From: Bryopsis sp. KO-2023
Taxonomy: Eukaryota > Chlorophyta > Ulvophyceae > Bryopsidales > Bryopsidaceae
Direction: 5' to 3'
NCBI GenBank assembly: GCA_030272585.1
Contig: BSYQ01000003.1
Coordinates: 2,790,001 to 2,854,000 of the forward strand
DNA: 64,000 nt
The position numbers were made by a program, and so were the translations under genes. A model generated the notes under the pieces. That model did not search any database. It was given only the letters and a program-made list of their open reading frames with translations, and had not been told where the DNA came from. Shown in pieces: positions 6,759-59,569 of this stretch (position 1 is the stretch's first letter; each line of letters begins with the position of its first letter).

Positions 6759-7922
6759 ATGGGGGATGGACCTGAGGACCAGGGGACCAGTATGGAGGGG
6801 GTTCAGCGTCCTAAGCGCCGGGCGGACTCAGACCCCCGAACTGACGCAGCAGCCTGCCCGTCTATTGACGTGAGGGATCCGGCGTTCACCTTCTTGCATG
6901 AGCGCGTTGATGCACAGACTGATTCGGTGCGTGTGATCAAGGACCTCCAGGCGTGTGTTAAAAAAATGGTGGTTACGCTGATGCGTCTCGATTCGGTTCC
7001 GGAGAAACTGGAGTCCATGCAGGAATCGATGATTTCTCGAATCCAGAGCCTGGAGGCTCGTGTGGAGAAATGTGAAGTTGACCTCGCTCAACGTGTTGTG
7101 GCTTTGGAGGCCAAGGTGAAGTCATTTGAGCAGGCTGGCCCTCCTGCGGACGTGCGACGTACTATTGGTGGTCTGGAGGATCGCTTGTCTCTTGCAGTTG
7201 ATTCTATCAGTCAGTTGGAGAAGAAATCGAATCTCCTGTTTGTTGGTGTACCTGATTCGGAGGCTGAACGGGGTCCTGCCCTGCGCGACACAGTTGTTGG
7301 CATCTTGGATCGGCTTCAGGACGAGCTGATGGATTCCTCGACAGAGCGGTATTCCTCTCACGTCGCGTTCGTGACTCGTCTTGGTCGTTTCCGGGCTGGT
7401 GCTCGTCCGCGGCCTCTACTGGTGCGGTTTAAGACCGATCTGATTCCATTGGCGTTGTGGGGAATGAAGAAGGACATCCGTTTGGCCATCTCTGCTGGCA
7501 GCTTGGCTGGTGTTCCTGCCGGTTTTGGCCTTCGACACGATCTGACGGCTCGTCAGCGAGCGATTCGCCAACAGTTGATGCCGATTCACCAGTTGGCGTT
7601 CAAGGAGAAGGATCGCCCTGACGCTCGTCTTGAGAGGGCGTTCTTCGATGATGAGCGTCTTTTTGTGGTGCCCAAGGTTGGCAGGCCACTCCCGGTCACG
7701 ATCGATGGCCCGGATACCAGGTGGAGGGGTATGTTCGTGGATATGGCGGCTCTGACCGACATTCTTTTTGGGCCTGTGGGTGGACATCATGGTGGTCCTC
7801 CTCACCAAAACGGTTCTGCTCCATCGGGTTCGCGTGCTCATCAGGGACCTGTTGGTTCTGAGTTGGTTCCTTTTTCTCCAGCGCTTCAGATGGGTGGTGA
7901 TCCCATCACGATCGATGAATAG
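6759..7922 (+). CDS. LINE-A ORF1 protein (L1-type RNA-binding protein)
   Basis: 387 codons from ATG 6759 to UAG 7920-7922. I chose this ATG because LINE-B has its start in the same context (agtgatATG); upstream codons are open but lack ATG. Residues ~60-150 form a heptad-rich coiled coil, and residues ~155-270 resemble the RRM-like domain of L1 ORF1p (starting NLLFVGVPDSE). The last ~60 residues are Gly/Pro/His-rich. ORF1 proteins of this kind bind LINE RNA and act as nucleic-acid chaperones in the RNP. The stop is followed in the same frame by ORF2, see 7920-7975. Confidence 0.85.
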   Translation: MGDGPEDQGTSMEGVQRPKRRADSDPRTDAAACPSIDVRDPAFTFLHERVDAQTDSVRVIKDLQACVKKMVVTLMRLDSVPEKLESMQESMISRIQSLEARVEKCEVDLAQRVVALEAKVKSFEQAGPPADVRRTIGGLEDRLSLAVDSISQLEKKSNLLFVGVPDSEAERGPALRDTVVGILDRLQDELMDSSTERYSSHVAFVTRLGRFRAGARPRPLLVRFKTDLIPLALWGMKKDIRLAISAGSLAGVPAGFGLRHDLTARQRAIRQQLMPIHQLAFKEKDRPDARLERAFFDDERLFVVPKVGRPLPVTIDGPDTRWRGMFVDMAALTDILFGPVGGHHGGPPHQNGSAPSGSRAHQGPVGSELVPFSPALQMGGDPITIDE

Positions 7923-7975
7923 GGGTGCGGCCGACCGATATTCCTTCGTCTCGGAACGTGGAATCTTCGGTCGGC
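7920..7975 (+). promoter_or_regulatory. Predicted UAG readthrough element, LINE-A
   Basis: ORF1 ends in UAG (7920-7922) and ORF2 continues in the same frame. After the stop come GGGUGCG and then a perfect 9-bp stem: GCCGACCGA (7930-7938) pairs with TCGGTCGGC (7967-7975), loop 28 nt, spacer 7 nt. A UAG followed by G and a structure about 8 nt downstream is the layout of the gammaretroviral gag-pol readthrough signal. Function here is inferred from sequence. Confidence 0.7.
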
Positions 7976-10900
7976 AACTGTGGGGAAGATGGCCTGTTTG
8001 ATTGAATTGCTAGATAGAATCGATGTTTTGGTTTTGCAGGAGATTGGGGATACTGGGTTGCTTTCAAACTTGCCTCATTTTACGGCACATTTTTTGGAGA
8101 GGGATGCACGTAGACGATCGGGGGGGGTGGCTGTCTTGGTCCGCAATACTGTTGAGGCGCACGTTTCTTTTTTGCAAGACGCCTATATTGGTAGTTCTGT
8201 GATTGCTTTTTCTTTGGTTTTTGGTTCGTTTTCTTTGACCGTTTTTGGTGTTTATCTGCCTAGTCCGAGTTCTTCTTACTCCGATCAGAGTGTTTGGGAC
8301 GATTTGGAGTCGGCTGTTTTGTCACGTCGTTCTGGAAACGTTGTTTTGCTTGGGGATTTCAATGGGCATACGGGCACCGAGGTGGACGGGGAGGATGTTG
8401 GGTTTCAGGAGAGATCCAATTGTGATCGCTCTGCTGTTAGTTGGAATGGTCGTCGTCTCTTGTCTTTGTGTCAGGCTGCTGGTGTGCGTATTTTCAATGG
8501 CCGTGTTCGTGGGGATTTGATTGGGGAGTGTACGTTTCGGCAACAGGGTGTTTGGAGTCTTTTGGACTATGTCGTGGGCAGTGAGTCTATTTTGTCGGAT
8601 TGGGACGTTTCTTTGTTTGTGGAGCCCGATCCGCCGTTGCACATTTCGGATCACAGGGCTGTTGTTTTGACTGTTGCGTTTTCTCAGGTGTGGGATCAGG
8701 CTGTGGATCGTGGAAGGTATCGTATGGCGGCACGGGATCAGCAGCGATTGGCTCGGTTTTTGCGATGCAATCGTGATTCTTTGCTTTCAGGAATCGATTC
8801 GGGAGCATCGGTGGATTGTGTTGCTCGTTCGGTTTCGGCTGTGGTGACTACCCAGTTGGTGAAGCGCTCTTCATCTGTTCCAGCTCGGCGCGTTTCTCGG
8901 CAGCCTTGGTATAATCAGGCGTGTATCGATGCTTTGCGTGAGTACCGGCGTGCTTGGAGGGCATATTTGCGGCGACCCGAATCGCCTGATCTGGCTGTTG
9001 ATGCGAGGAGATTGAGGAATCGCTATTTTGCTGTTTTGGCTCGAGAGAAGCGTCAGTTCGACCTGGGATATGGTGACTATATGCAGCGCCTCTTCAAGGA
9101 GGATTCCAAACGTTTTCACTCCACTTTGTTTCCGAGGCAGAAGCGTGCTTCTGATGCTGTAACTTTGGACGATTGGCACAAGCACTTTACGGAGTTTTTC
9201 GAGGCCTCCTCTCTTGATACGGATGATCCAGAGCCTCATGTTGATATCAGGAGCGATGTGTTGGGACGTGACGACCTTGTGACGCCTTTTACTGACGTGG
9301 AGGTCAAGCAGGCGGTGAGAAAGTTGAAACTGGGGACGTGTGCTGGTGCGGATTCGTGGACGCCGGCGTTCTTCAAGGGACAGGGGTTGCAGGAGGCTTG
9401 GCTTCCGTTGCTGCTCGCTCTCTTTAATCGATGCCTTCGCGAGAGACGTGTTCCTCGGAGCTGGCTGTTTGGTATGGTGCGCCCCATTTACAAGAACCGT
9501 GGACATCGTTCGGATCCCATTCGTTATCGTCCGATCATGCTCTGTACGGTGTGGTACAAACTGTTTGTTTATACGTTGATGGAGCGCGTCGCACCTGTGT
9601 TGGACCCTGTTCGTCATCCCACTCAGGCCGGTTTTCGGAGGGGCTGTGAAACGGTGACTTGGATTTTGCTGGCGTGGGGTCTCATTTTCTGGGCGAAGAA
9701 GACTGGGAACTTGTTGTTTTTGCTGTCGATGGATTTGGCGAAAGCTTACGACAGTGTGCATCACGATCGCTTGTGGTTGCACTTGCGACGTATGGGCCTG
9801 CATCCTTGGCTGATTGAACTTGTGAGGTACATGTATCACAACTCCTCGGCGGTGGTTAGGGGGACTCGTGGCTGTTCGCGCTCGTTTGAGATGCGCCGTG
9901 GTGTGCGACAAGGCTGCCCTTTCAGTCCTCTGTTGTATACTTGTTACCATGATAACTTTCCTCTTCTCTTGGAGCGACTGGACTTGGAACGAGTTGTTTT
10001 TGACCTGGTGAAGATCGTCGCGATGATCTTTGCGGACGACACTCTGGTGCCTTTGCGTGATGAGGAAGGTGTGCAGGCGGTGGGCGACTTGACGCTTCGG
10101 TTTGAGCAAGACTGGCATATCAAGACGAACCATGAGAAGACGGAGGTGCTTGCGGTGAACCCGGGGTCGCGTACTTCGGTTTCGTTTGGTGGACACGATG
10201 TGCCGTTGCAGCGCACGCTCAAGTATTTGGGTGTGGTGTTTTACGATGGGCCTGGGGACGTCAACGTGTTTCGGGAGCATATTTCAAAGGTGTTGTGTGC
10301 GGGCAACGTGGCTGTTGGGCGTTTGCGTGCGAGGGCGTTTGAGATCGGTTTGAGGGATCCACGGACTCTGGTGGCTCTCTTCAAGATGTACGTTTTGGGG
10401 AAGGTGCAGTATGCTGCGCCGGTTTGGGTGTTCTTTCTGACTCAGCAGCACAAGCGGGAGCTGAACGATCTGTTGGTGCGTTACCTAAAATCGGTGCTAC
10501 GTCTTCCGACGAGGGCGCTGAAGAATTTCGTGTATTTGGAGTGTGGTGTTTTGCCGGTCACGTTTTATTTGTACCGGAACGCGTTGAAGTTTTGGAATCG
10601 CCTGATGCAATTGCCGGCGACGCATCCCACGCGGGCGATGCTGTTCTGGTTGCGTGGTCAGCCGGATTCTCGGCGTTCTTGGTGGGTCCAGTTTCGTGAT
10701 ATGGTGAGACGCTTTGTTCCACAGTTCGATGGGTTTGTGGAGGTGGACGTGGCGACCTGGGCGCGTGCCTATAAGGCAGATATTGTGGGTCAGTTGCGTT
10801 CTCGACATCCGCGTATCGTGGCGTATTACAATCGGTTCAAACCGACGTTTTGTTACACGAAGGCGCTGTCTTCTTTTACGGATTTGGGTTTGCGTACGAC

Positions 10901-11207
10901 TTGGGTGCGTTTTCGGGCTCGTCTTCACGGTTTGGAGATCGATGCTGTGGACTTGAGTGATAGAGACGTGCCTTTGAACGAGAGGTATTGTCCGTTTTGT
11001 TTGGCCGCTGGGGTTTCGACGCCTGAAAACGAGGTGCATTTTCTTTTTGCTTGTCCGCTTTATGTGCGGTTGCGTGTGAACTCGGTCGTGGAAGAGAGTC
11101 GTGGCTCTCTGTTTCGTTTGTTTAATTGTCCGGGGCAGGTTCGTGTGGCTGTTTATATTCGCCGGGCGCTCGCCTTGCGTAGGGAGTGGTTGGACGCTCG
11201 TTCGTAG
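7923..11207 (+). CDS. LINE-A ORF2 (endonuclease-reverse transcriptase)
   Basis: 1094 codons counted from the codon after the ORF1 UAG, ending TAG 11205-11207. The N-terminal APE-type endonuclease starts at GTWN (N14) and has LQEIGD (E40), GDFN (D145, N147) and SDHR (D243, H244). The RT domain has its catalytic FADD at ~703-706. The C-terminus has C-X2-C-X12-H-X4-C from C1023. The enzyme nicks target DNA and copies LINE RNA at the nick. The first AUG in frame, at 7989, would remove the GTWN motif, so translation probably enters by readthrough from ORF1. No internal stop is present. Confidence 0.9.
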   Translation, partial: GCGRPIFLRLGTWNLRSATVGKMACLIELLDRIDVLVLQEIGDTGLLSNLPHFTAHFLERDARRRSGGVAVLVRNTVEAHVSFLQDAYIGSSVIAFSLVFGSFSLTVFGVYLPSPSSSYSDQSVWDDLESAVLSRRSGNVVLLGDFNGHTGTEVDGEDVGFQERSNCDRSAVSWNGRRLLSLCQAAGVRIFNGRVRGDLIGECTFRQQGVWSLLDYVVGSESILSDWDVSLFVEPDPPLHISDHRAVVLTVAFSQVWDQAVDRGRYRMAARDQQRLARFLRCNRDSLLSGIDSGASVDCVARSVSAVVTTQLVKRSSSVPARRVSRQPWYNQACIDALREYRRAWRAYLRRPESPDLAVDARRLRNRYFAVLAREKRQFDLGYGDYMQRLFKEDSKRFHSTLFPRQKRASDAVTLDDWHKHFTEFFEASSLDTDDPEPHVDIRSDVLGRDDLVTPFTDVEVKQAVRKLKLGTCAGADSWTPAFFKGQGLQEAWLPLLLALFNRCLRERRVPRSWLFGMVRPIYKNRGHRSDPIRYRPIMLCTVWYKLFVYTLMERVAPVLDPVRHPTQAGFRRGCETVTWILLAWGLIFWAKKTGNLLFLLSMDLAKAYDSVHHDRLWLHLRRMGLHPWLIELVRYMYHNSSAVVRGTRGCSRSFEMRRGVRQGCPFSPLLYTCYHDNFPLLLERLDLERVVFDLVKIVAMIFADDTLVPLRDEEGVQAVGDLTLRFEQDWHIKTNHEKTEVLAVNPGSRTSVSFGGHDVPLQRTLKYLGVVFYDGPGDVNVFREHISKVLCAGNVAVGRLRARAFEIGLRDPRTLVALFKMYVLGKVQYAAPVWVFFLTQQHKRELNDLLVRYLKSVLRLPTRALKNFVYLECGVLPVTFYLYRNALKFWNRLMQLPATHPTRAMLFWLRGQPDSRRSWWVQFRDMVRRFVPQFDGFVEVDVATWARAYKADIVGQLRSRHPRIVAYYNRFKPTFCYTKALSSFTDLGLRTTWVRFRARLHGLEIDAVDLSDRDVPLNERYCPFCLAAGVSTPENEVHFLFACPLYVRLRVNSVVEESRGSLFRLFNCPGQVRVAVYIRRALALRREWLDARS

Positions 11208-11574: not shown

Positions 11575-14444
11575 GCTTCCAGCTCAGAAACCCAGAGCGA
11601 GCGCCCAACAAACAAAGCAAACAACAAAGAACACCAACTTCCCCATCAAACGAAACATCCAGAACAACGAAAAACAAACACCACCAGTCGCGACAAGCCC
11701 ACTACGAACGAGCGTCCAACCACTCCCTACGCAAGGCGAGCGCCCGGCGAATATAAACAGCCACACGAACCTGCCCCGGACAATTAAACAAACGAAACAG
11801 AGAGCCACGACTCTCTTCCACGACCGAGTTCACACGCAACCGCACATAAAGCGGACAAGCAAAAAGAAAATGCACCTCGTTTTCAGGCGTCGAAACCCCA
11901 GCGGCCAAACAAAACGGACAATACCTCTCGCTCAAAGGCACGTCTCTATCACTCAAGTCCACAGCATCGATCTCCAAACCGTGAAGACGAGCCCGAAAAC
12001 GCACCCAAGTCGTACGCAAACCCAAATCCGTAAAAGAAGACAACGCGTTCGTGTAACAAAACGTCGGTTTGAACCGATTATAATACGCCACGATACGCGG
12101 ATGTCGGGAACGCAATTGACCCACAATATCTGCCTTATAGGCACGCGCCCAGGTCGCCACGTCCACCTCCACAAACCCATCGAACTGTGGAACAAAGCGT
12201 CTCACCATATCACGAAACTGAACCCACCAAGAACGCCGAGAATCCGGCTGACCACGCAACCAGAACAGCATCGCCCGCGTGGGATGCGTCGCCGGCAATT
12301 GCATCAGGCGATTCCAAAACTTCAACGCGTTCCGGTACAAATAAAACGTGACCGGCAAAACACCACACTCCAAATACACGAAATTCTTCAGCGCCCTCGT
12401 CGGAAGACGTAGCACCGATTTTAGGTAACGCACCAACAGATCGTTCAGCTCCCGCTTGTGCTGCTGAGTCAGAAAGAACACCCAAACCGGCGCAGCATAC
12501 TGCACCTTCCCCAAAACGTACATCTTGAAGAGAGCCACCAGAGTCCGTGGATCCCTCAAACCGATCTCAAACGCCCTCGCACGCAAACGCCCAACAGCCA
12601 CGTTGCCCGCACACAACACCTTTGAAATATGCTCCCGAAACACGTTGACGTCCCCAGGCCCATCGTAAAACACCACACCCAAATACTTGAGCGTGCGCTG
12701 CAACGGCACATCGTGTCCACCAAACGAAACCGAAGTACGCGACCCCGGGTTCACCGCAAGCACCTCCGTCTTCTCATGGTTCGTCTTGATATGCCAGTCT
12801 TGCTCAAACCGAAGCGTCAAGTCGCCCACCGCCTGCACACCTTCCTCATCACGCAAAGGCACCAGAGTGTCGTCCGCAAAGATCATCGCGACGATCTTCA
12901 CCAGGTCAAAAACAACTCGTTCCAAGTCCAGTCGCTCCAAGAGAAGAGGAAAGTTATCATGGTAACAAGTATACAACAGAGGACTGAAAGGGCAGCCTTG
13001 TCGCACACCACGGCGCATCTCAAACGAGCGCGAACAGCCACGAGTCCCCCTAACCACCGCCGAGGAGTTCTGATACATGTACCTCACAAGTTCAATCAGC
13101 CAAGGATGCAGGCCCATACGTCGCAAGTGCAACCACAAGCGATCGTGATGCACACTGTCGTAAGCTTTCGCCAAATCCATCGACAGCAAAAACAACAAGT
13201 TCCCAGTCTTCTTCGCCCAGAAAATGAGACCCCACGCCAGCAAAATCCAAGTCACCGTTTCACAGCCCCTCCGAAAACCGGCCTGAGTGGGATGACGAAC
13301 AGGGTCCAACACAGGTGCGACGCGCTCCATCAACGTATAAACAAACAGTTTGTACCACACCGTACAGAGCATGATCGGACGATAACGAATGGGATCCGAA
13401 CGATGTCCACGGTTCTTGTAAATGGGGCGCACCATACCAAACAGCCAGCTCCGAGGAACACGTCTCTCGCGAAGGCATCGATTAAAGAGAGCGAGCAGCA
13501 ACGGAAGCCAAGCCTCCTGCAACCCCTGTCCCTTGAAGAACGCCGGCGTCCACGAATCCGCACCAGCACACGTCCCCAGTTTCAACTTTCTCACCGCCTG
13601 CTTGACCTCCACGTCAGTAAAAGGCGTCACAAGGTCGTCACGTCCCAACACATCGCTCCTGATATCAACATGAGGCTCTGGATCATCCGTATCAAGAGAG
13701 GAGGCCTCGAAAAACTCCGTAAAGTGCTTGTGCCAATCGTCCAAAGTTACAGCATCAGAAGCACGCTTCTGCCTCGGAAACAAAGTGGAGTGAAAACGTT
13801 TGGAATCCTCCTTGAAGAGGCGCTGCATATAGTCACCATATCCCAGGTCGAACTGACGCTTCTCTCGAGCCAAAACAGCAAAATAGCGATTCCTCAATCT
13901 CCTCGCATCAACAGCCAGATCAGGCGATTCGGGTCGCCGCAAATATGCCCTCCAAGCACGCCGGTACTCACGCAAAGCATCGATACACGCCTGATTATAC
14001 CAAGGCTGCCGAGAAACGCGCCGAGCTGGAACAGATGAAGAGCGCTTCACCAACTGGGTAGTCACCACAGCCGAAACCGAACGAGCAACACAATCCACCG
14101 ATGCTCCCGAATCGATTCCTGAAAGCAAAGAATCACGATTGCATCGCAAAAACCGAGCCAATCGCTGCTGATCCCGTGCCGCCATACGATACCTTCCACG
14201 ATCCACAGCCTGATCCCACACCTGAGAAAACGCAACAGTCAAAACAACAGCCCTGTGATCCGAAATGTGCAACGGCGGATCGGGCTCCACAAACAAAGAA
14301 ACGTCCCAATCCGACAAAATAGACTCACTGCCCACGACATAGTCCAAAAGACTCCAAACACCCTGTTGCCGAAACGTACACTCCCCAATCAAATCCCCAC
14401 GAACACGGCCATTGAAAATACGCACACCAGCAGCCTGACACAAG
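11575..14444 (-). mobile_element. LINE-A copy 2, main part (antisense)
   Basis: Continuation of 5671-5921 on the far side of the full-length LINE-A. It runs from the 3' UTR back into the endonuclease domain, where it is truncated (equivalent to LINE-A 8466). It is nearly identical to the neighbouring sense copy and forms with it a long inverted repeat. Confidence 0.85.
11702..14443 (-). pseudogene. LINE-A ORF2 fragment, 5'-truncated
   Basis: About 913 codons of ORF2 are open from the truncation point to the TAG at 11702-11704: the last third of the endonuclease including SDHR, the whole RT with FADD, and the CCHC cluster. Endonuclease residues upstream (GTWN, LQEIGD, GDFN) are absent, and there is no ORF1. 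It differs from 7923-11207 by only a few substitutions (for example His to Gln in MYHNSS). Confidence 0.8.
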
Positions 14445-15618
14445 GATACAAGGATACAAGGATACAAGGATTACAAGTTGCGTAGGGCAAACCGCCCTGT
14501 TGCAACGACATACATGAGTGAATCGTGTCCCAACGTTCGAAGCAAGGCAAAAGCCTCTGAATGTAATCAACTCCTAAATGAACAAAATCTCCTAAAACAA
14601 AAAAGTTCCAACGTCTCTGAAACCAGAAATCCCCAATCGAAACTCAAGAAAGAGCCCAAACGTCAAAACATAAAACCAAACACAAGAATCGGTCGCTTCC
14701 AACTCAGAAACCCGGAGCGAGCGCCCAACAAACAAAGCAAACAACGAAGAACACCAACTTCCCCATCAAACGAAACATCCAGAACAACGAAAAACAAACA
14801 CCACCAGTCGCTACAAGCCCACTACGAACGAGCGTCCAACCACTCCCTACGCAAGGCGAGCGCCCGGCGAATATAAACAGCCACACGAACCTGCCCCGGA
14901 CAATTAAACAAACGAAATAGAGAGCCACGACTCTCTTCCACGACCGAGTTCACACGCAACCGCACATAAAGCGGACAAGCAAAAAGAAAATGCACCTCGT
15001 TTTCAGGCGTCGAAACCCCAGCGTCCAAACAAAACGGACAATACCTCTCGTTCAAAGGCACGTCTCTATCACTCAAGTCCACAGCATCGATCTCCAAACC
15101 GTGAAGACGAGCCCGAAAACGCACCCAAGTCGTACGCAAACCCAAATCCGTAAAAGAAGACAACGCGTTCGTGTAACAAAACGTCGGTTTGAACCGATTA
15201 TAATACGCCACGATACGCGGATGTCGGGAACGCAATTGACCCACAATATCTGCCTTATAGGCACGCGCCCAGGTCGCCACGTCCACCTCCACAAACCCAT
15301 CGAACTGTGGAACAAAGCGTCTCACCATATCACGAAACTGAACCCACCAAGAACGCCGAGAATCCGGCTGACCACGCAACCAGAACAGCATCGCCCGCGT
15401 GGGATGCGTCGCCGGCAATTGCATCAGGCGATTCCAAAACTTCAACGCGTTCCGGTACAAATAAAACGTGACCGGCAAAACACCACACTCCAAATACACG
15501 AAATTCTTCAGCGCCCTCGTCGGAAGACGTAGCACCGATTTTAGGTAACGCACCAACAGATCGTTCAGCTCCCGCTTGTGCTGCTGAGTCAGAAAGAACA
15601 CCCAAACCGGCGCAGCAG
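14445..15618 (-). mobile_element. LINE-A copy 3, 5'-truncated (antisense)
   Basis: Starts with four TACAAGGA-type tail repeats and the hairpin, then the 3' UTR and last ~260 codons of ORF2 (15601-14822), and ends abruptly against the orphan gene at gtcgatctctg. The inner and outer flanks are different sequences and no target duplication can be seen, consistent with a deletion having occurred here. Confidence 0.75.
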
Positions 15619-21614: not shown

Positions 21615-22829
21615 ATGTCCGGATCTCAGGACGCTTCAGAGGGTCAGCGTCGTGTGCGTGAGGCTCTCATTCAGCATGGTGGCAGGCCTGTCCTGTCGCT
21701 GGAAGGTGCATCTCGTGAGACAGCTGCTGGCGATATGGAAGGGATCGCACGTGATAAGCGTCGGGCTGCTGATGCGCCTGCTGCTGATGGCGGTTCCTTA
21801 CCGGGTACCCCGCGGCCCCGTAGCCGCTCCGGCTTGTGTTTGGATGATGAGGATGTTGCATTCTTACAATCCAATGTTTCCACGAGGCCTCTGAATGGTG
21901 AATACTTGCGTGAGAGCTTGGTGGGGATTCAAAAGGTATTGGTTTCGCTGGTGCGAGGTATTGCGAACCTGGAGCGGTTGACGTCGCAGGTGAATGAGTG
22001 TGTGACGGATCTCAATCAGTTGCGGCACACTACTGATAGCCGTTTTCAGGCTTTGGAGGCTCGTCTCGACAAATTAGAACAATCCCCCCCGGATGCTGGC
22101 TCTACGGAAGAGGTGAAACGGGCCATTGGTACCTTGGATGACCGCCTGAGTTCTCTTGCGGATGAGGTGGCCAAACAGTCGAAGCGGAAGAATCTGATCT
22201 TTGCGGGCATTGAGGAAGGCCCTGGGGAACGTGGACCTGCGTTGCGGGAATCGATCAAAACTTTGTTGGACAACCTTCAACGGGAATTACAGGACGAGAC
22301 TGCAGTGACGACGGACTCTTGGTCCTCCCACGTCTCGTTTGTGTCGCGATTGGGATCGTCCACTTCTGGCCGTGCACGAATGGTGCTCGTGCGCTTCAAG
22401 TCGGACCTTGCGGCCGAACGTCTGTGGGAGAGCCGTAGGGACATCAAGATGTTGGTGCAATCTGGTCACGGCCTTCCTTCTGGGTTGGTGGTCAGGAGGG
22501 ACTTGACTCAGCGTCAGCTTCAACTGCGTCGGGAGTTGATGCCTGTGCATCACCTTGCTTGGGATGAGTCGCGCAAGGCGAATTCGAGGATATCACGGGC
22601 TTTTTTCGCTGAGGAGAAATTGTTCGTGGTTCCAGTCTCGGGTGCACCACTGCCCGTTGGTTTGCTGGCACAGGACACACGTTGGCGTTCTCTCTTTATG
22701 GACCAGAGCGCTCTCAATGACCTTGTTTATGGCCCTGTTCGCGCTCGTCCTTCTGCGCCGGCTCCCGCTTCTTCCATGCCACCACCAGGTTCGTCTATGG
22801 CCTTGGTTTCCACCTCGGGTGGTCACTAG
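21615..22829 (+). CDS. LINE-B ORF1 protein (L1-type RNA-binding protein)
   Basis: 404 codons, ATG 21615 (context agtgatATG, matching LINE-A) to UAG 22827-22829. The N-terminal ~100 residues are basic and low-complexity. A coiled coil covers ~110-185, and an RRM-like domain starts at ~190 (NLIFAGIEEGPGERG) and continues to ~310. The C-terminus is Pro/Ala/Ser-rich. It aligns with LINE-A ORF1 in the RRM-like part and diverges at both ends. Role: LINE RNA binding. Confidence 0.85.
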   Translation: MSGSQDASEGQRRVREALIQHGGRPVLSLEGASRETAAGDMEGIARDKRRAADAPAADGGSLPGTPRPRSRSGLCLDDEDVAFLQSNVSTRPLNGEYLRESLVGIQKVLVSLVRGIANLERLTSQVNECVTDLNQLRHTTDSRFQALEARLDKLEQSPPDAGSTEEVKRAIGTLDDRLSSLADEVAKQSKRKNLIFAGIEEGPGERGPALRESIKTLLDNLQRELQDETAVTTDSWSSHVSFVSRLGSSTSGRARMVLVRFKSDLAAERLWESRRDIKMLVQSGHGLPSGLVVRRDLTQRQLQLRRELMPVHHLAWDESRKANSRISRAFFAEEKLFVVPVSGAPLPVGLLAQDTRWRSLFMDQSALNDLVYGPVRARPSAPAPASSMPPPGSSMALVSTSGGH

Positions 22830-22885
22830 GGGTGCCGCCGTTCGGTTTTCCTGAGGGTGGGGACTTGGAATGTTCGGGCGGCGGC
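22827..22885 (+). promoter_or_regulatory. Predicted UAG readthrough element, LINE-B
   Basis: UAG 22827-22829, then GGGU, then a 12-pair stem: 22834-22845 (GCCGCCGTTCGG) pairs with 22874-22885 (TTCGGGCGGCGGC register), nine Watson-Crick plus three G-U pairs, loop 28 nt. The arms lie at equivalent codons to those in LINE-A although the bases differ. Confidence 0.7.
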
Positions 22886-24088
22886 TGATTGGAAGGGTTG
22901 TTTTTTCGAAGATGTTTTAGATCAGGTGGATATTTTATTTTTACAAGAGATTGGGGATGTTTCCTTTTATGATCGGTTTTCTGATTTTTCTGTTTTGTTA
23001 CGGTCGCGTCAGGGGGTACGTCGACGGTCTGGGGGTGTTGGGGTTATGGTACGGAAGTCTTTGGATGCGTCAGTTTCGTTTTTGGATGTGCAAGACGCCA
23101 GCAGTTCGATTGTTGGGGTTCGTTGTTTTATTGGTCCTTCTGAGTTGATTTGTTTTGGTTGCTACCTGCCTTCTGCAGGCTCTGATTTTCGCGATTTGGA
23201 TGTGTGGGACTTTCTTTCGGAGGAAATTTCTGGTTTGGGTACGCTTGGAGATTCCCGTTTTGTTTTGGTGCTGGGTGATTTCAACGCTAGCACTGCGGTT
23301 TCCAGTGATGGACCGGACGTTCCTGGATTGCCAGTTCGTGTTTCTAGTGATTCTCGTGGTGTTGACGCCAATGGTCGGCTTTTGCTTCGTTTGTGTTCAG
23401 AAAATGATCTCAGGATTTTCAATGGTCGTGTTTCGGGCGACGCTCAGGGCTTGTCCACTTTTCGTTTGGGCTCTACGGGTGGTTTGCAGTTGATTGATTA
23501 CGTTTTGGGATCGCCGGGGCTGTTTGCGTTTGCTGATTCTTTGCGTGTGTGTCCGGAGACGATTGCATCGGATCACATGCCTGTTGTTCTGAGTTTGTCC
23601 TTTCGTCAGGAGTGGAATCGGCAGGTAAATGCAGGGCGTTTCCGTTTGGGGGCTCGAGAGCAGCAACAGTTGGCGTCGTTTCTTTCCGTTCACAGAGATT
23701 CGTTGCTGGATGAGATCGAAGATGCGCCATCGGTGGATGCGATGGGCTCTGCGGTCTCGGATGTTGTGGAGCATCGTTTGGAGTGGTTTCCTCCTTCTCG
23801 ACCACGACGACGTCTTGCGCGACAGCCGTGGTATTCAGCGGCGTGTGTGCTGGCCTACAGAGCGTATCGTGCTGCATGGCGTGCACATCGTTGTCGGCGT
23901 TCGGTCGTTGCGTTGGCTCAATCGGCACGTAATCTCCGGAATCGGTATTATGCGGTGTTGAGGCGGGCGCGCAGAGAGTTTGATCGTTCTTATGGCGACA
24001 GGATGCCGGCTTTGTTCACGAGTGATTCTCGGGCGTTTCATCGTGCTTTGTTTCCGAAGGGCCAGCGAGCGTCTGATGGTGTGGATGT
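22830..24088 (+). pseudogene. LINE-B ORF2, N-terminal half (endonuclease)
   Basis: About 419 codons in the ORF1 frame from the codon after UAG. It holds the complete APE endonuclease: GTWN, LQEIGD, GDFN and SDHM (where LINE-A has SDHR). No ATG occurs until well past the catalytic Glu (first Met in GVMVRKS), so ORF2 has no usable start of its own. The frame is broken at 24088 by the LINE-A insertion and resumes at 24580. Confidence 0.85.
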
Positions 24089-24573
24089 CGTGGAAGAGAG
24101 TCGTGGCTCGGTATTTCGTTTGTTTAATTGTCCGGGGCAGGTTCGTGTGGCTGTTTATATTCGCCGGGCGCTCGCCTTGCGTAGGGAGTGGTTGGACGCT
24201 CGTTCGTAGTGGGCTTGTAGCGACTGGTGGTGTTTGTTTTTCGTTGTTCTGGATGTTTCGTTTGATGGGGAAGTTGGTGTTCTTCGTTGTTTGCTTTGTT
24301 TGTTGGGCGCTCGCTCCGGGTTTCTGAGTTGGAAGCGACCGATTCTTGTGTTTGGTTTTATGTTTTGACGTTTGGGCTCTTTCTTGAGTTTCGATTGGGG
24401 ATTTCTGGTTTCAGAGACGTTGGAACTTTTTTGTTTTAGGAGATTTTGTTCATTTAGGAGTTGATTACATTCAGAGGCTTTTGCCTTGCTTCGAACGTTG
24501 GGACACGATTCACTCATGTATGTCGTTGCAACAGGGCGGTTTGCCCTACGCAACTTGTAATCCTTGTATCCTT
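24089..24573 (+). mobile_element. 5'-truncated LINE-A inside LINE-B ORF2
   Basis: 485 bp: last ~40 codons of LINE-A ORF2, 3' UTR, hairpin and TCCTTGT tail. It is flanked by the 8-bp duplication gtggatgt at 24081-24088 and 24574-24581. Removing it rejoins the LINE-B frame exactly. Confidence 0.88.
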
Positions 24574-49910: not shown

Positions 49911-50037
49911 CAAGAACTTTAAGTTCTTGAGATCGAAACTTGTGAACGTGGCGCAACAAACGTTTTTGTTTGTTTGTTTGGTAGAGAGAAACTCCAACCG
50001 TGGTTGTTGAGTACTCCCAAATAGTGGCTGAGAGACC

Positions 50038-52689
50038 ATGGCTGACCGTGAACACGCATTGGCAGTGCGCGAGCCTCAAGTTGAAGAGCCAGGGATTGAA
50101 CCTGAGTTCGATGAGGAATTGCCTGACGCACCCAATGTTGTGTATCAACAAATAAACGTCCAGAACATCCACAATGTCCAGCAAGCAGCTGTCGACATAG
50201 ACATGGGAGCTGATGCGGAAGCCTTGAGAGAGGATGTGGATGCGGTCCATGACCGTGTGGACGATTTAGCCCACGGGCTAAGGGGTCACCTGCAGCAAGT
50301 TGACCAGACACTGGGGCAGAGGCTAGCCCATGCTGAGGCCTCTGTGTCGAACCAACTGGCTGGCGCATCAGAGGTGATCGGGCAGGCGCTGGAAACACAG
50401 CACCAGCATGCGCAACAGGTTGAGGCCACACAGCATGCGGTGGTGTCGCAACAGCAGAAGCTGGATTCAGTAGCGGCTCAACATAGTCGATACGAGCAGA
50501 GGCTATTACGCCAAGATATCGACCATAGAAAAGAAAGAGCCGAGATCAAAGCTTCTGTGGACGCAATAACGAGGAGAATGGATGCCGCAGACATTCTAGC
50601 GGACTCTCGTTTTGCTGACCTAAAAGAAGCAACTGAAGCATCAGCACTTCAGTTAAAACAACTCTCCGAGTTATCCCTTGTTCAAGGGCGGAGAATTGAA
50701 GGCTTATTAGGAACTGTTGCGGATTCCAACGAAAAAGTCGAACGGACTCTAGAATTGTTTCGGGAGTCCTTGCATAAGCAAGGTGCTGAGGTGAAGCGTT
50801 TGCAGAGCTCCAGAGTAGCAATTCAAAAAGATTTGATTGCCTTGGAGAAAAAGGCATCCAAGACCTGGGATCAGCAGCAAGATGCAGCTGATGTGGTTGC
50901 CTTAAGATTATCTGGCCTGGAACGAAGCATGGAGGATGTGAGTGGCGGAAGTCAGAGTGCCCAAAGTGGAAGTGATGCTCGTGCAGTATCACCAGAGCGA
51001 GAAGAATCAACTTCCCCTGAGCCTGAGGACTCAGCCTTTGGGATGCCGCTGCCGAAGAAATCAGTAAAGCAGTTGGCTGCATCATGGCCGCCACTAGACC
51101 AGAGCTTCGCGGTAGGAATGGTTGGGGCAGGAACCTCAACAATACCGGCTCCTCCAGCAGTACAGGTCGAGGAGGGTGAAATTGTTGCTGCAGAAGCACC
51201 ACCATGCACTGCAGTGGATAGCGCACCAGACGCTGATTTCACATTCCCTCAGTTGATACCTCCAAGTACAAGAGCTCAGCCTGGAGTACGCATCTCAGAA
51301 CCCGACTCTGCCGATGGATCACGTAGACCCACACGAACTAACCCAAGAGTTCTCTCCTCAGCAGAAGTGTTATATCAAATTGACCTTGAGCGTGCTAAGG
51401 CACAGGTCAGAGACGAGAAAGGAAAAGAACCCATGCAGATCCCCACCCGTACTGGAAGATTGGGACTTGGGTTAAGTGCTTTGGGAGCAAGGGTAGAAAA
51501 TAATCCCTTTGCTGCACTTGGTTCATATGAGTCTACTGGTGGACCCAGTCGAGTTCCTCGCATGCGAGGTAACTTTGGAGACCCTGGTGATGACGACCCA
51601 GATGATGATGGCGGTGATGATTACCGCGACAGACGAAACCGCCCACCTTCCCGCATTCCAGGTGCGCCTGATGGCGGAGGAGGTGGTGGCGGCGGTGGAG
51701 ATGGTGGAGGCGGTGGACCTCCCGGTGGACCTCCTGATGGAGGTGGAGGTGGAGGTGGCGCTGGACCGGCAGGCCCAGGACCTCCTAGGCAAGGACAGTG
51801 GTTGCCTAGCACCGTCAAGTTGCAAATGCCTCGCGCATTCAACGGAAGTGGAGAACCAAAAGCCCGTAAATGGCAAGTGCTCATGACGCGGTACTTGAGA
51901 ACCTGCGGAGTGCATGAAGCACAGTGGCAGTCGATTATGGCCACTAACCTTTATGGGGCTGCCTCGGATTGGTTAACGATGCAAGAATTGAAAATTCACC
52001 GAGGTGAAAGACCACCCTTCCGTGACTGGATGGACTTCATGGATGGCTTAGCTACAGCTTTCGAATTCTCTAGTGATCGAGATGAAGCGTGGCGTGACCT
52101 CCATAAACTCAAGCAGACTGGAACCGTGAAACAGTTCGTCAAAGAGTTTCAGCGGTTAGTCTTGAGGATTCCAGACCTCGAAGAGGATCACCAGTATTTG
52201 CTCTTCGTGGATGGACTTAAAAGTGAAGTTCAGAAGTTAGTCGCAGCAACGGTACCTCGAGATGTCGAGGCCGCCATCATATCAGCCGAACGATTGGAAG
52301 CCCTTGGAGTTGGAACACAAGGCCAAGGAGGGCAAACCAATCAGAAAAAGAAAGGAGTCTGGCGTGGTGGAAGAAAGAAGAAAGGCCAGAATCAGGGTCA
52401 GCAGCAGCAGAACCCCACACCACCAGCCCAAGCACCACCACAAGCTGCCGCAGGAGTGCAACAGCAGCAGCAACAGCAACAAGGACGAGGAGGAGGACGT
52501 GGTGGTGGTGGACGTGGACGCGGTGGTGGTAACCGTGGAAGAGGACAAGCCAATCAGGGAAGACAGAACCCCCAGGGGGGAGGGGGATATAATTGTTATC
52601 TTTGTGGAAAGAAGGGTCATCCTGTGAGGCAATGTCCTAGATTGGAGGAGGTGAAAAACCTCCCCGATGTAAAAAAAATGTTAAACTGA
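50038..52689 (+). CDS. gag: Gag polyprotein of the Ty3/gypsy element
   Basis: 883 codons, ATG 50038 (agaccATGG) to TGA 52687-52689. The N-terminal ~330 residues are largely coiled coil (Gln/Glu/Ala-rich). Then an acidic/Pro stretch, a Gly-rich segment (~545-585), the retrotransposon gag (capsid-like) domain ~590-760, a Gln/Gly/Arg-rich RNA-binding region ~780-845, and a zinc knuckle C-X2-C-X4-H-X4-C at 853-866. Gag forms the particle and packages RNA. It is longer than most Ty3 Gags because of the coiled-coil N-terminus. The last codons form the frameshift site. Confidence 0.92.
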   Translation: MADREHALAVREPQVEEPGIEPEFDEELPDAPNVVYQQINVQNIHNVQQAAVDIDMGADAEALREDVDAVHDRVDDLAHGLRGHLQQVDQTLGQRLAHAEASVSNQLAGASEVIGQALETQHQHAQQVEATQHAVVSQQQKLDSVAAQHSRYEQRLLRQDIDHRKERAEIKASVDAITRRMDAADILADSRFADLKEATEASALQLKQLSELSLVQGRRIEGLLGTVADSNEKVERTLELFRESLHKQGAEVKRLQSSRVAIQKDLIALEKKASKTWDQQQDAADVVALRLSGLERSMEDVSGGSQSAQSGSDARAVSPEREESTSPEPEDSAFGMPLPKKSVKQLAASWPPLDQSFAVGMVGAGTSTIPAPPAVQVEEGEIVAAEAPPCTAVDSAPDADFTFPQLIPPSTRAQPGVRISEPDSADGSRRPTRTNPRVLSSAEVLYQIDLERAKAQVRDEKGKEPMQIPTRTGRLGLGLSALGARVENNPFAALGSYESTGGPSRVPRMRGNFGDPGDDDPDDDGGDDYRDRRNRPPSRIPGAPDGGGGGGGGGDGGGGGPPGGPPDGGGGGGGAGPAGPGPPRQGQWLPSTVKLQMPRAFNGSGEPKARKWQVLMTRYLRTCGVHEAQWQSIMATNLYGAASDWLTMQELKIHRGERPPFRDWMDFMDGLATAFEFSSDRDEAWRDLHKLKQTGTVKQFVKEFQRLVLRIPDLEEDHQYLLFVDGLKSEVQKLVAATVPRDVEAAIISAERLEALGVGTQGQGGQTNQKKKGVWRGGRKKKGQNQGQQQQNPTPPAQAPPQAAAGVQQQQQQQQGRGGGRGGGGRGRGGGNRGRGQANQGRQNPQGGGGYNCYLCGKKGHPVRQCPRLEEVKNLPDVKKMLN

Positions 52690-52724
52690 CCGCCAGGCAG
52701 GAAACTGCTTCGTCTGAGCCTGGC
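52671..52724 (+). promoter_or_regulatory. -1 frameshift signal between gag and pol
   Basis: Slippery heptamer A-AAA-AAA at 52671-52677 in the gag frame (gtA AAA AAA atg), 9 nt before the gag TGA. A 7-bp stem follows: GCCAGGC (52692-52698) with GCCTGGC (52718-52724), 14 nt after the heptamer. The pol frame is open from the heptamer onward. All three elements of a canonical -1 site are present. Confidence 0.75.
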
Positions 52725-55700
52725 CGACGCAAACGTCGTAAGCGAAATAGAGTTCGTAGGCGGCGTAGGAAGCATAGATCAAAAGTAGGTGCCTCGAAAA
52801 AGGTTAAAAGTACTCACAGCGGAAAACCTGAGGAGCGGACTAGTACACCGCGTGAAGAGAGAACAGAGACACTCTCCACATCTACCCAATCGGCACATGA
52901 CAACTGCGATTGGAAAAATGAACAGAAGGAAAGCACACCGGATGAGATGGACGCGCCTCATGCGTCATCTGCATCTCTTCCCTCTGTTAGTGAATCTGTG
53001 GGCTCATTGGAGTCGCAGAGTAGTCTACAGGAGTCCCTGCCTGCAGACGTAGACGATAGTGGGTCAGAAACAACCCAACGGTCTACCACAGAGCGAGTTA
53101 ATGTGTCAGAAGTTCGATCAACTTCATCAACCAAGGGTGACACATGCCCTCTGTTAAAAATTCAAGAAGTGCCTGTGAGAGGGTACGAAGTAAAAGCACG
53201 GATCAAGACCACGGACCTTTATGCATTCATTGATTGTGGAAGTACCGCAAACTATATCAATGATAAGGTAGCGCGTGATCTCGGGTTGTCGATTACACCA
53301 AGCTCCAAGAGAGCAATGTTGGCAAACGGAGATATCAAAGAACTGGCTGGCAGCTGTAACAACCTCCGAGTAAAGATAGGAGGGCTGAAGTGCAAAATGA
53401 AAGCGGATCTGTTCCCAGACCTTGGTTATGACCTAATATTGGGCATGCCTTGGTTGCAGAAAGAAAACCCCCGCATAGACTTTCAGCAGAATGAGATTTC
53501 AGTTTGCAAAAACAGCCAAGTGTTTCATCTCCCGTTGCGACATCCAACCCAAGAGAGTATTGAACCTGAACGAAAAGTACAGTCGATACTGCAAGAAGTG
53601 CCAGTGACTGAGTGTTCAGCTAAACGAATGATGCGTCATCTCAAAACAGAGACAGCATTCATGGTTGTAGTGCAAGAGTCTGAAGAGAAAGCTTTAGGCC
53701 AACATGAATTGCCTGACGCAATAGAGCGAACACAGCCATTCAACACTGAGGATGAGATTGGCAAACTTATTCGTTCAGACACCCCTGCCGAAATTAAAAA
53801 GGTGGTAGAAACACACCGTGGTGTGTTCCCTCGTGATTTACCCCCAGGGATCCCTCCGAAGAGAAAAGGTCATGAGTTTAAGATAGACCTGGAGGATCCA
53901 ACACCTATCCATCGTCCAATATACAAGCTTTCACCAGCAGAGCTGGATGAAGTGAAAGCACAAGTGGACTACCTTCTGGAACAGAAGAAAATCAAACCAT
54001 CCGAGTCCCCTTGGGGCGCGCCAATCCTATTTGTACCGAAAAAGGATGGAGGCTTAAGGATGTGTGTGGATTACAGGTGGATCAATAAGGTGACGGTGAA
54101 AAACCGGTATCCTTTACCCCTGCCAGAAGAATTGATGGATAGAGTGTTCAAAGCCAAAGTGTTCTCGAAGTTAGATCTGCGATCAGGCTATTGGCAATTT
54201 CCAGTAAGGCCATCTGATACAGATAAAACAGCGTTCCGCACGAGATACGGTCACTTTGAGTTTTTGGTAGCGCCTTTTGGGCTAACCAATTGCCCAGCGC
54301 AATTCCAAACTCTAGTGCAAGACCTACTCGCAGAGTTTTTAGATGAATTTGTTGTTGTCTTTATCGATGACATACTCATCTTCTCTGAAAACATGGAACA
54401 GCATGCCGAACACTTAGAGAAAGTCCTGTCGCGACTAGCAGAATATCAGCTTTTTGCTAAGGCAAGTAAAAGTGAGCTGGCTGTCGCAACAGTAGACTAT
54501 CTTGGCTACCGCATTAGCGGAAGTGGGTTAAAACCACAGGAACAAAAAGTGAAGGCAGTGAAGGAGTGGAAGGAACTACAGAGTGTTAGTGATGTACGTA
54601 GTTTCCTTGGAATGGTTTCATACTACAGAAAATTCATTCCCCAGTTTGCACATGTTGCTGGACCACTCCATGACTTAGTGAAAAAAGACCATCCCTGGAG
54701 ATGGGGACAGGTTGAGCGTGGCGCATTCAATGAACTGAAAAAGCGTTTAAGTCAAGCTCCCGTCCTTATTTTTCCAGATGCGTCACTGCCTTACACTGTG
54801 ATCACTGATGCGTCGAATGAGGCCATCGGTGCCGTGTTAACACAGGATCACGGAGAGGGGCTGCAGCCAATAGCTTACCTCTCACGTAGATTCAAGCCTG
54901 CCGAGCTTAACTATGCACCATACGACAAAGAGTTGTGTGCAATATGTTATGCGATGGTGCAGTGGAGACATTATCTAGAAGGTTGTGCGGGTGGAGTAAC
55001 AGTGTTCACTGACCACCAACCTCTGACGCATATTCTGTCGCAGAGGAACCTTTCTAGAACCCAAGCAAGATGGCTTGAGGCGGGGTACCTGACTTCGATC
55101 AACCCCAAGATCTCCTATATCAAAGGCAAGGCTAATGTGTTAGCAGATGCTCTCTCCCGCAGTGTTCCTAAGCCCGTGGAAACTGCGATGAACATTTCCA
55201 CTTGGCAAGTGCATCAAGCAAGCCAAGACGAGTGGAAACAAGCCCTCCAAGCTGATAACTCCTTGGTGAAGATATTGCGGAAGCTTGAGAGTGGCGAGGA
55301 AGTTGAGGGATATTTCCTCAGAGAGGGAATACTCTGGACGGTCCCAAAGAGAGGGTTAGTCGAGAAAGTGGTGGTTCCTAAAGGCCAGCGCAATAAGATC
55401 ATGAAGGAGTGCCATGAGACACCTTCAGCAGGCCATACAGGACCAGCGCGAACAGGAGAAATCCTAGCGCGGCGATATTGGTGGAAGGGGTGGATGAATG
55501 AGTTGAAGGCATTTGTGCGCGAATGCCCTGTGTGCCAACAAATAAAGGCTGACACACAGAAGCCTATGGGCTTACTTCAACCCCTGCCAATACCTGAGCG
55601 GAAGTGGGAGCAGATTACCACTGACTTGGTGACAGATCTACCAGCATCCAATGGGTTTAGTGCTGTAGCTGTCTTTGTCGATAGACTTACCAAGTTTGTG

Positions 55701-56687
55701 CATTTCGCCCCATGTACTAAAGAGATTACCGCTGCAGGATACGCCCAACTTTTTATCGAACATGTTTACCGCAACCATGGCCTACCTAAAGTGATTGTGT
55801 CTGATAGAGACCCTCGCTTTACCAGCAAGTTCTGGCAGACGCTTTTTAAAGCTCTGGGTACAGAGATTCGTATGAGTACAGCTTACCACCCTCAGACGGA
55901 TGGGCAGAGTGAGGTTACCATACGTACTCTGGAAAATTTCTTAAGGCCATATGCTGAGAGGTATCCCCATAAGTGGGTTGAGTATTTACCTACAGCAGAG
56001 TTTGCAGCAAACAATGCGGTGAATGCGAGTACAGGGTTCGCACCTGCATATTTGATGTATGGGTATCATCCAGAAACACCAAACATTGATGGGACGGCAA
56101 CGCAATTTCAAGTGGAAGCAGTTAAGACTATGGTAGCACGGATGGCACAGGACTTAGATACCGCAAAAGCATATTACTCTAGAGCCCAACACAGAATGTG
56201 TGTGAGTGCAAACAAGAAGAGGAAAGATATTGCTTTTGAGAAAGGGGATAAAGTCCTGATAAAAAGCCGTTTTATTCCGTTGGCTGCTTTGAACAAAGTG
56301 AGTCCCAAACTGCGCCGTCGATTTGTGGGTCCCTTTGAAATTGTGGAGAAAATATCAAAGGTGGCTTACAGAGTTCAACTTCCGGAAACATGGCTCATTC
56401 ACCCAGTGTTTCATGTTTCTAAGTTCAAGCGTTATCACGCCTCGAGTGATAACAGCAGGCAGATACAACCTCCAGAAGGAGAGTTGATTGGTAGCGAAGT
56501 AGAGTATGAGGTCGAAAATATCCTAAGGGCTAGAGGTAAACGCAATCGTGAATACCTAGTGCTGTGGAAAGGATACGATCTACTTGACGCTACTTGGGAA
56601 CCTGAAGCTAATCTGGTTAACGCACCAGATATACTTCGCGCATTTAAAGAGAAAGAAAGAAAAGAGTTGCAGAAAGGAAGAGAATAG
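52671..56687 (+). CDS. pol: Pol polyprotein (PR-RT-RH-IN-chromodomain)
   Basis: Open from the frameshift site to TAG 56685-56687. The first ATG is at 52947, and the residues here are counted from it (1246). A basic linker precedes it. Protease active site FIDCGST at D96. RT palm FIDD 472-475. RNase H TDAS at D621. Integrase zinc domain H823, H830, C860, C863, then a D-D-E core (TTDLVTDL, SDRDPRF, HPQTDGQSE). Chromodomain ~1184-1240 (YEVENILRARGKRNREY, LVLWKGY). It processes, copies and integrates the element. The chromodomain places it among chromoviruses and may direct integration to marked chromatin. Confidence 0.93.
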   Translation, partial: KKNVKLTARQETASSEPGRRKRRKRNRVRRRRRKHRSKVGASKKVKSTHSGKPEERTSTPREERTETLSTSTQSAHDNCDWKNEQKESTPDEMDAPHASSASLPSVSESVGSLESQSSLQESLPADVDDSGSETTQRSTTERVNVSEVRSTSSTKGDTCPLLKIQEVPVRGYEVKARIKTTDLYAFIDCGSTANYINDKVARDLGLSITPSSKRAMLANGDIKELAGSCNNLRVKIGGLKCKMKADLFPDLGYDLILGMPWLQKENPRIDFQQNEISVCKNSQVFHLPLRHPTQESIEPERKVQSILQEVPVTECSAKRMMRHLKTETAFMVVVQESEEKALGQHELPDAIERTQPFNTEDEIGKLIRSDTPAEIKKVVETHRGVFPRDLPPGIPPKRKGHEFKIDLEDPTPIHRPIYKLSPAELDEVKAQVDYLLEQKKIKPSESPWGAPILFVPKKDGGLRMCVDYRWINKVTVKNRYPLPLPEELMDRVFKAKVFSKLDLRSGYWQFPVRPSDTDKTAFRTRYGHFEFLVAPFGLTNCPAQFQTLVQDLLAEFLDEFVVVFIDDILIFSENMEQHAEHLEKVLSRLAEYQLFAKASKSELAVATVDYLGYRISGSGLKPQEQKVKAVKEWKELQSVSDVRSFLGMVSYYRKFIPQFAHVAGPLHDLVKKDHPWRWGQVERGAFNELKKRLSQAPVLIFPDASLPYTVITDASNEAIGAVLTQDHGEGLQPIAYLSRRFKPAELNYAPYDKELCAICYAMVQWRHYLEGCAGGVTVFTDHQPLTHILSQRNLSRTQARWLEAGYLTSINPKISYIKGKANVLADALSRSVPKPVETAMNISTWQVHQASQDEWKQALQADNSLVKILRKLESGEEVEGYFLREGILWTVPKRGLVEKVVVPKGQRNKIMKECHETPSAGHTGPARTGEILARRYWWKGWMNELKAFVRECPVCQQIKADTQKPMGLLQPLPIPERKWEQITTDLVTDLPASNGFSAVAVFVDRLTKFVHFAPCTKEITAAGYAQLFIEHVYRNHGLPKVIVSDRDPRFTSKFWQTLFKALGTEIRMSTAYHPQTDGQSEVTIRTLENFLRPYAERYPHKWVEYLPTAEFAANNAVNASTGFAPAYLMYGYHPETPNIDGTATQFQVEAVKTMVARMAQDLDTAKAYYSRAQHRMCVSANKKRKDIAFEKGDKVLIKSRFIPLAALNKVSPKLRRRFVGPFEIVEKISKVAYRVQLPETWLIHPVFHVSKFKRYHASSDNSRQIQPPEGELIGSEVEYEVENILRARGKRNREYLVLWKGYDLLDATWEPEANLVNAPDILRAFKEKERKELQKGRE

Positions 56688-59147: not shown

Positions 59148-59569
59148 TGTTAGTCTTTTAGCGCTATACGAGGTAGTTTGGGATAGAGCCGAGGGTGGCT
59201 GACGCATGCGGGTTCGCGAGTAAGACAGATTAGACCCAGAGTTTGGGGCATGCGTCAGCGTACTACACTTAGGGGTACTTAAGAGGCCCACTCGTTGTTT
59301 TGACGTTCACTTTATTTTGTAAGAACTCGGGATTCGTGGGATTGGTGTGTTCCCGCTTGTGTGTGTGTTTGTGTGTGTGTGTGTTAAGTGTTTGCCTGAC
59401 GCAATCACTTCCCAACCCAAGTGCTCTAGTAGCGTTCACAACCGCGCTAGCTAGAGAGTTGTCTAAACCAACAAACCCCACAAGTATACTTGCGTTAGCC
59501 AGCAAGTTATCACGAATCCAATCAACACAGCCGACCACTATTGCGTCACCCACAAGCTTCACTATCAAT
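59148..59569 (+). mobile_element. 3' LTR of the Ty3/gypsy element
   Basis: 422 bp, same ends as the 5' LTR, two substitutions. It abuts a DIRS-like RT fragment at 59570. Confidence 0.9.

Follow-up and report, generated by a model that had tools for sequence, protein, structure and literature searches.

In the green alga Bryopsis sp. KO-2023, the two open reading frames (ORFs) of eight families of L1-type long interspersed elements (LINEs) share a frame and are separated by a single stop codon, and comparison of these junctions indicates that the ORF2 protein is probably made as an ORF1–ORF2 fusion by programmed readthrough of that stop, a reading to which we give a probability of about 0.78. 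The element at its centre, LINE-A, lies in the window analysed here, a stretch of 64,000 nucleotides (nt) from contig BSYQ01000003.1 (G000:C3:2790001-2854000) in a genome of 91.1 Mb and 28 contigs. Readthrough is the simplest reading because it fits the common frame, the single stop, the stop-codon contexts, the RNA structures and the missing early AUG codons together. These features, with the compensatory changes in the stems and the selection on the start of LINE-B ORF2, can be read from the sequences; the occurrence and efficiency of readthrough and the function of the fusion are our inferences from them.

A sequence-only reading of the window had proposed that a single in-frame UAG joins LINE-A ORF1 and ORF2, and its description of the junction proved exact on rechecking (Table 1). 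The frame is open for 447 codons upstream of the TAG (387 counted from ATG 6759) and, in the same register, for 1094 codons downstream, ending at TAG 11205-11207; the GGGTGCG spacer and the perfect stem are as described, and the first ATG of ORF2 does fall after the endonuclease residues W13-N14. An out-of-frame ATG at 7915-7917 was considered and rejected, as it opens another frame and is not conserved. ORF2 has the L1-type layout, with an APE-type endonuclease followed by a reverse transcriptase, and its top-ranking match with an organism name is Xenopus Tx1 (E 3.2e-14). ORF1 resembles human LINE-1 ORF1p structures weakly (E 0.003), four of the five listed PDB matches being LINE ORF1 proteins, and an alignment of ORF1 from families A–H, in which H is a 161-residue fragment, retains four invariant columns (Glu, Arg, Gln and Trp), the Arg belonging to an RLGR-like motif. 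Outside this genome, the one close match to LINE-A (P0001; 84%, 714 amino acids) starts inside ORF2 and is uninformative on the junction. A collection of viral contigs contained no LINE-A relative, and a reverse-transcriptase family scan, in which 150 of 1978 candidates were scored, gave none resembling these LINEs and was not used.

A 181-base LINE-A junction probe found 18 matches in the genome, 14 of which span the stop, and the LINE-A endonuclease found 68, among which reading of the junctions gave further families. In eight (A–H) of the nine families with a junction read, ORF1 and ORF2 share one frame with a single stop between them: TAG-GGGTGCGG in family A (14/14 junction copies), TAG-GGGTGCCG in B (6/6 copies read, including one in the window at 22827), TAG-GATTGC in C (one copy), TAG-GGGTTA in D (9/9), TAG-GATTCA in E (9/9), TGA-CTACTA in F (three copies, including the decayed L093), TGA-CAATTT or TGA-CAGATT in G (three copies) and TGA-CGGTGC in H (one copy). 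The stop is retained in all 46 junction copies read. Loss of the same-frame UAG in other LINE-A copies would have told against the earlier proposal of an ORF1–ORF2 fusion; all 14 have it, and a same-frame UAG or UGA is also retained in the other seven families. Anatomy and comparison both support the proposal. Representative copies of A–H have ORF1 open for 161–536 codons within the sequence covered. Upstream of the stop, the ORF1 frame is broken in two G copies and in several copies of D and E. All genome-wide counts are minimum values, with partial copies and several distant matches outside them. Excluded from the junction count were copies whose 5′ end starts past the stop (L021, L092, L071, L080 and L082), four of the 18 probe matches, which do not reach the stop (one of these is L021), the deletion copy L060 described below, and L091, a 5′-truncated relative of family I.

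Family I (L090, G000:C4:4418100-4418400, 301 bases) is a more distant LINE that is not among the listed LINE-A endonuclease matches. Its zinc-knuckle ORF ends in TAA, and its ORF2 lies in a different frame with its own ATG just 5′ of the endonuclease start, thus indicating that a same-frame stop is no rule for every LINE in this genome.

Two LINE-A copies are rearranged. L061 (G000:C11) carries an insertion of ~88 nt in ORF1, with 12 nt of the element matching on both sides. L060 (G000:C7:3192709-3196431) has an 843-nt in-frame internal deletion, equivalent to window positions 7496-8338; this copy (match at C7:3194209-3195297) has lost the ORF1 end, the stop and the endonuclease start, and it forms one open frame of 1261 codons. 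This stop-free copy could reflect splicing or RNA editing that strips the stop from some transcripts, after which the fusion or ORF2 would be translated normally, and the UAG of families A–E does end in AG, a possible 3′ splice site. The ends of the C7 gap are not GT-AG, however, and with the endonuclease start gone it looks like a plain deletion. An ORF2 protein that copies its own spliced RNA should also leave precise stop-free copies, none of which is among the copies read, and the UGA families F–H lack the same acceptor, while the hairpins would go unexplained. We consider splicing or editing very unlikely.

The base that follows the stop is equally regular: G follows UAG in all five UAG families and C follows UGA in all three UGA families, and no junction in A–H uses UAA. 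With codon-first-base frequencies in these ORFs of 0.32 for G and 0.20 for C, the chance of this pattern is ~3e-5, assuming independent families and a preset test, neither of which is fully true. The contexts are UAG-GGG (A, B and D), UAG-GAU (C and E), UGA-CUA (F), UGA-CGG (H) and UGA-CAR (G). In table 5 of Firth and Brierley, UAG-GGR is given for the Tombusviridae and UAG-G for gammaretroviruses, and type II readthrough is described at UGA-CGG or UGA-CUA, often with an extended stem-loop ~8 nt downstream (PMC3542737). A plant-virus review lists the same classes (PMC5382211). UAG-GGG, UGA-CUA and UGA-CGG match these tabulated contexts; families C and E match UAG-G only, and G has the leaky UGAC and CARYYA in part only. 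The use of two different stops also bears on reassignment of the codon, or a suppressor tRNA that turns it to sense, since both UAG and UGA would need to change. Nothing was found in favour of such a change, the window, to which the suppressor-tRNA scan was limited, being without a tRNA gene, and the LINE-A ORF2 is free of stops for 1094 codons and itself ends in TAG. Reassignment is extremely improbable.

Stable RNA structure follows the stop in several families. The 57 nt after the LINE-A stop fold at -26.3 kcal/mol with a z-score of -3.2 against 200 dinucleotide shuffles, and are the stablest of 645 segments of this length, taken every 3 nt over a region that reaches 1.2 kb upstream and 0.9 kb downstream. 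The corresponding z-scores are -3.3 in B, -3.5 in F, and -3.0 and -4.3 in two G copies. No other segment is equally stable in A (0/644), B (0/644), F (0/608) or the G copy on contig C5 (G C5; 0/644), and two are in that on C16 (G C16; 2/644); the counts are 272/644 in D and 54/211 in H. Strong hairpins begin 4–7 nt past the stop in A, B, F and G (6 nt in F), and that of F keeps z-scores of -4.3 and -3.4 when 72 and 87 nt are folded. Family H may form a 100-nt extended stem-loop from 9 nt past the UGA, less firmly indicated and in one copy (z -1.9; 6/200 shuffles as stable); a different 86-nt stretch that does not start at the stop gave a z-score of -0.9. Family D, one of six junctions scanned for pseudoknots, has a candidate H-type pseudoknot directly after the UAG, without the 8-nt spacer, which was equalled by 16/1000 shuffles and 20/1041 other segments. 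No H-type pseudoknot passed the scan in the first 50 nt after the LINE-A stop.

The stems also show paired changes. Those of A and B share one register, in which 44/48 cells pair across four sequences and both bases of two pairs have changed; when the partner is shifted by 1–3 columns, 17–58% pairing remains. Pairing is complete in the G stem (39/39 cells), where two pairs show double changes (U-A to C-G and U-A to A-U), and shifts leave 15–46%. Across the 14 codons of this stem, six nonsynonymous and two synonymous changes separate the C16 copy from C5, six nonsynonymous and one synonymous separate C5 from C15, and a single synonymous change separates C16 from C15; the last 90 ORF1 codons hold 0–1 nonsynonymous changes. 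The stem codons thus change amino acids while the cells still pair, which indicates that pairing is conserved where the protein is not. Downstream of the stop, a ratio of nonsynonymous to synonymous substitution rates (dN/dS) of 0.13 between two B subfamilies, taken across the initial 260 codons of ORF2, indicates purifying selection on the start of LINE-B ORF2, as judged from these sequences. Ratios for L027/L031 ORF1 (1.08), G ORF2 and L039/L040 ORF2 were discarded owing to misaligned or broken stretches.

Early AUG codons are missing from ORF2 in most families. In an endonuclease alignment of families A–G, which in A–F extends to a few residues from the stop, W13 and N14 (WN) are invariant, and the first in-frame ATG of ORF2 in A–F, at codons 23, 73, 20, 189, 83 and 52, respectively, follows WN in each case. 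The 105 ORF2 codons covered in family H contain no ATG; this family lacks a literal WN, for which its LNCN may be the counterpart. Seven of the eight families, all but G, therefore have no in-frame AUG before the endonuclease start. Representatives of A–H contain no AUG that overlaps the stop in the ORF2 frame, the arrangement of SART1-type coupling.

Several points weigh against programmed readthrough, and concern the number of observations, the structures, one related experiment and the start codons. Copies within a family are near-identical and the families share ancestry, so the 46 copies amount to at most eight observations. Column shuffles reached the covariation score in 41/500 cases for A/B and 104/500 for G, and as many double-changed pairs in 216/500 and 104/500, respectively; with three to four sequences each, these controls are weak and indecisive. 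The LINE-A z-score depends on length, being -1.4 for 71 nt including the stop and -1.0 for both 72 and 87 nt, and at the latter two lengths B gives -2.0 and -2.4, G C16 -1.5 and -1.2, and G C5 -2.5 and -1.8. For H it ranges from +0.2 to -2.0 across lengths of 40–200 nt from the stop. The G copy on C15 is unexceptional (32/644 other segments as stable), and no significant local structure was found in C (111/644) or E (426/614). The structural p-values are thus modest and length-dependent. The Candida element Tca2, which has long terminal repeats (LTRs), likewise has a gag-UGA-pol arrangement with a predicted pseudoknot, and its junction directed no readthrough in S. cerevisiae (PMC2194720). The modest p-values and the lack of local structure in C and E would suit a case without any programmed event, in which background readthrough makes ORF2 and the structures are due to chance or another RNA role. 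The combination of a shared frame, a single stop, a regular following base and hairpins, with the junction the stablest segment in A, B and F, argues against this, and we regard it as having very little probability.

The start codons bear on termination followed by reinitiation, in which ribosomes would restart near the ORF1 stop on an AUG or near-cognate codon with the hairpin assisting. Such coupling in SART1 relies on structure downstream of the stop–start site, and unconventional reinitiation has been proposed for L1 ORF2 (PMC5972666). Family G has an ATG before the endonuclease (codon 40, or 39 in one copy; 2/3 copies, the third having AGG at codon 40), with WN at codon 118, and reinitiation could serve there. 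Near-cognate codons occur before WN in all eight families and are limited to ATA and ACG in A, AGG in C and GTG in D; codon 10, three before WN, is GTG in B and D, TTG in E and CTG in F. Because codon 10 is near-cognate in four families, non-AUG reinitiation stays alive and the odds of readthrough are slightly lowered. No near-cognate position is common to all families, however, the in-frame AUG is missing before WN in seven of eight, and an out-of-frame ATG within 10 nt before the stop is present only in A and C. Reinitiation also demands neither a single frame nor UAG-G and UGA-C contexts, and overall appears unlikely.

The mechanism proposed for programmed readthrough rests on a leaky stop at the end of ORF1. 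Most ribosomes would terminate there and yield ORF1 protein; in a small fraction, a near-cognate tRNA would read the stop. The bases just 3′ of the stop would favour this, and most families would have the further help of an RNA structure a few nt downstream. The product would be an ORF1–ORF2 fusion bearing endonuclease and reverse transcriptase, which would keep ORF2 scarce and tether it to ORF1 protein on the RNA that encodes it, much as in gammaretroviral gag-pol. It is somewhat favoured, with less confidence than readthrough itself, that one ancestral same-frame stop was re-equipped family by family with several viral-type signal classes, namely UAG-G with a hairpin or pseudoknot, UGA-CUA or UGA-CGG with a stem-loop, and UGA-CAR with a hairpin. 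The readthrough signal would then be a replaceable module in an element whose ORF2 is born fused to ORF1.

Table 1. Features of the LINE-A and LINE-B junctions, in window positions.
Feature	Position	Strand	Evidence
LINE-A ORF1, 387 codons from first ATG (6759), L1-type ORF1 protein	6759..7922	+	open frame; weak human LINE-1 ORF1p match; 42% identity to LINE-B ORF1
LINE-A UAG, candidate readthrough stop	7920..7922	+	kept in 14/14 LINE-A copies spanning the junction
LINE-A 7-nt spacer GGGUGCG, UAG-GGG context	7923..7929	+	LINE-B has identical GGGUGC
LINE-A 9-bp stem, 5′ arm	7930..7938	+	fold and pair counts
LINE-A 9-bp stem, 3′ arm	7967..7975	+	fold and pair counts
LINE-A ORF2, endonuclease and reverse transcriptase, 1094 codons	7923..11207	+	Pfam Exo_endo_phos 1.7e-11, RVT_1 9e-26
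LINE-A endonuclease W13-N14, 5′ of first ATG	7959..7964	+	invariant in aligned families A–G
LINE-A ORF2 first in-frame ATG, codon 23	7989..7991	+	reading-frame scan
LINE-B ORF1, 404 codons	21615..22829	+	open frame
LINE-B UAG, candidate readthrough stop	22827..22829	+	6/6 LINE-B junction-spanning copies read
LINE-B 12-bp stem, 5′ arm, LINE-A register	22834..22845	+	fold, pair counts
LINE-B 12-bp stem, 3′ arm	22874..22885	+	fold, pair counts
LINE-B ORF2 start, broken copy (endonuclease only), first in-frame ATG at codon 73	22830..24209	+	open frame, domain match

On each of ten listed contigs, matches to LINE-A and LINE-B fall in a single cluster no longer than ~45 kb (for example C3 2.78-2.81 Mb, C7 3.19-3.24 Mb, C8 2.67-2.70 Mb and C14 0.55-0.59 Mb, with one place each on C10 and C13), and families D and E are scattered; the observation covers window positions 6579-26625 and loci L001-L066. 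The clustering looks like that of a centromere-restricted LINE. Centromere restriction is a feature of Zepp-like elements in green algae. A second LINE-A ORF2 (11702-14470, minus strand), without the endonuclease start, is inverted and faces the first, the two ORF2 ends lying ~0.5 kb apart. A 162-amino-acid open frame is repeated between ~4554 and 48880, with starts at 4554, 17590, 27703, 30960, 34217, 37478, 41929 and 46472. Three consecutive intervals measure ~3.26 kb, and many of the repeats have LINE-A 3′ fragments between them. The window also holds a chromodomain Ty3/gypsy element (50032-56687, plus strand), whose gag (to 52689) overlaps, in a different frame, a pol that is open from 52641; this suggests frameshifting rather than readthrough. 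A 438-amino-acid frame (59546-60862, minus strand) resembles by eye a putative reverse transcriptase of a different type.

It has long been asked how LINEs limit the amount of ORF2 protein, and the usual answers are reinitiation and separate starts. If readthrough operates here, it would set the ORF1:ORF2 ratio and yield a covalent fusion, and several signal classes in related elements of one genome would provide a natural series on stop leakiness and on the repeated origin of virus-like signals. SART1, mammalian L1 and Zorro3 are likewise two-ORF LINEs; SART1 uses stop–start coupling, reinitiation is proposed for L1, and the first ORF2 ATG is important in Zorro3 (PMC1965478). The view that readthrough would be an unusual mode of LINE expression needs qualifying, as readthrough of the ORF1 stop has already been suggested for Paramecium group 3 LINEs (PMC5405496). 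These too have ORF1 and ORF2 in one frame, but they belong to a distinct ciliate clade, and no signal is described in the portion of that paper covered. This was the only suggestion of LINE ORF1/ORF2 readthrough in the literature searched, which took in few subscription papers and may have missed earlier reports; viral-type readthrough signals in LINEs were not found in it, and the covered parts of PMC5009743 and PMC7175516 contain no case of LINE readthrough.

The closest parallels are viral. The likeness to the gammaretroviral gag-UAG-pol junction (type III) that the sequence-only reading had drawn holds for the UAG-G context, the same-frame enzyme ORF, the short spacer (8 nt in the virus, 7 nt in LINE-A) and the presence of a 3′ structure. 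It does not extend to the form of that structure, which is a compact pseudoknot in the virus and a hairpin in LINE-A and LINE-B, or to the element itself, a LINE without LTRs in which the domain search of LINE-A matched no protease. Readthrough to the Tombusviridae replicase (type III) employs long-distance 3′ pairing in the virus, but shares with families A, B and D the UAG-GGG form of UAG-GGR and a 3′-proximal structure, a candidate one in D. The type II signals of alphaviruses, tobraviruses and coltiviruses recur here in LINEs, where H is a single copy with a less firmly indicated structure; the shared features are UGA-CUA with a hairpin 6 nt on in family F and UGA-CGG with an extended stem-loop 9 nt on in family H.

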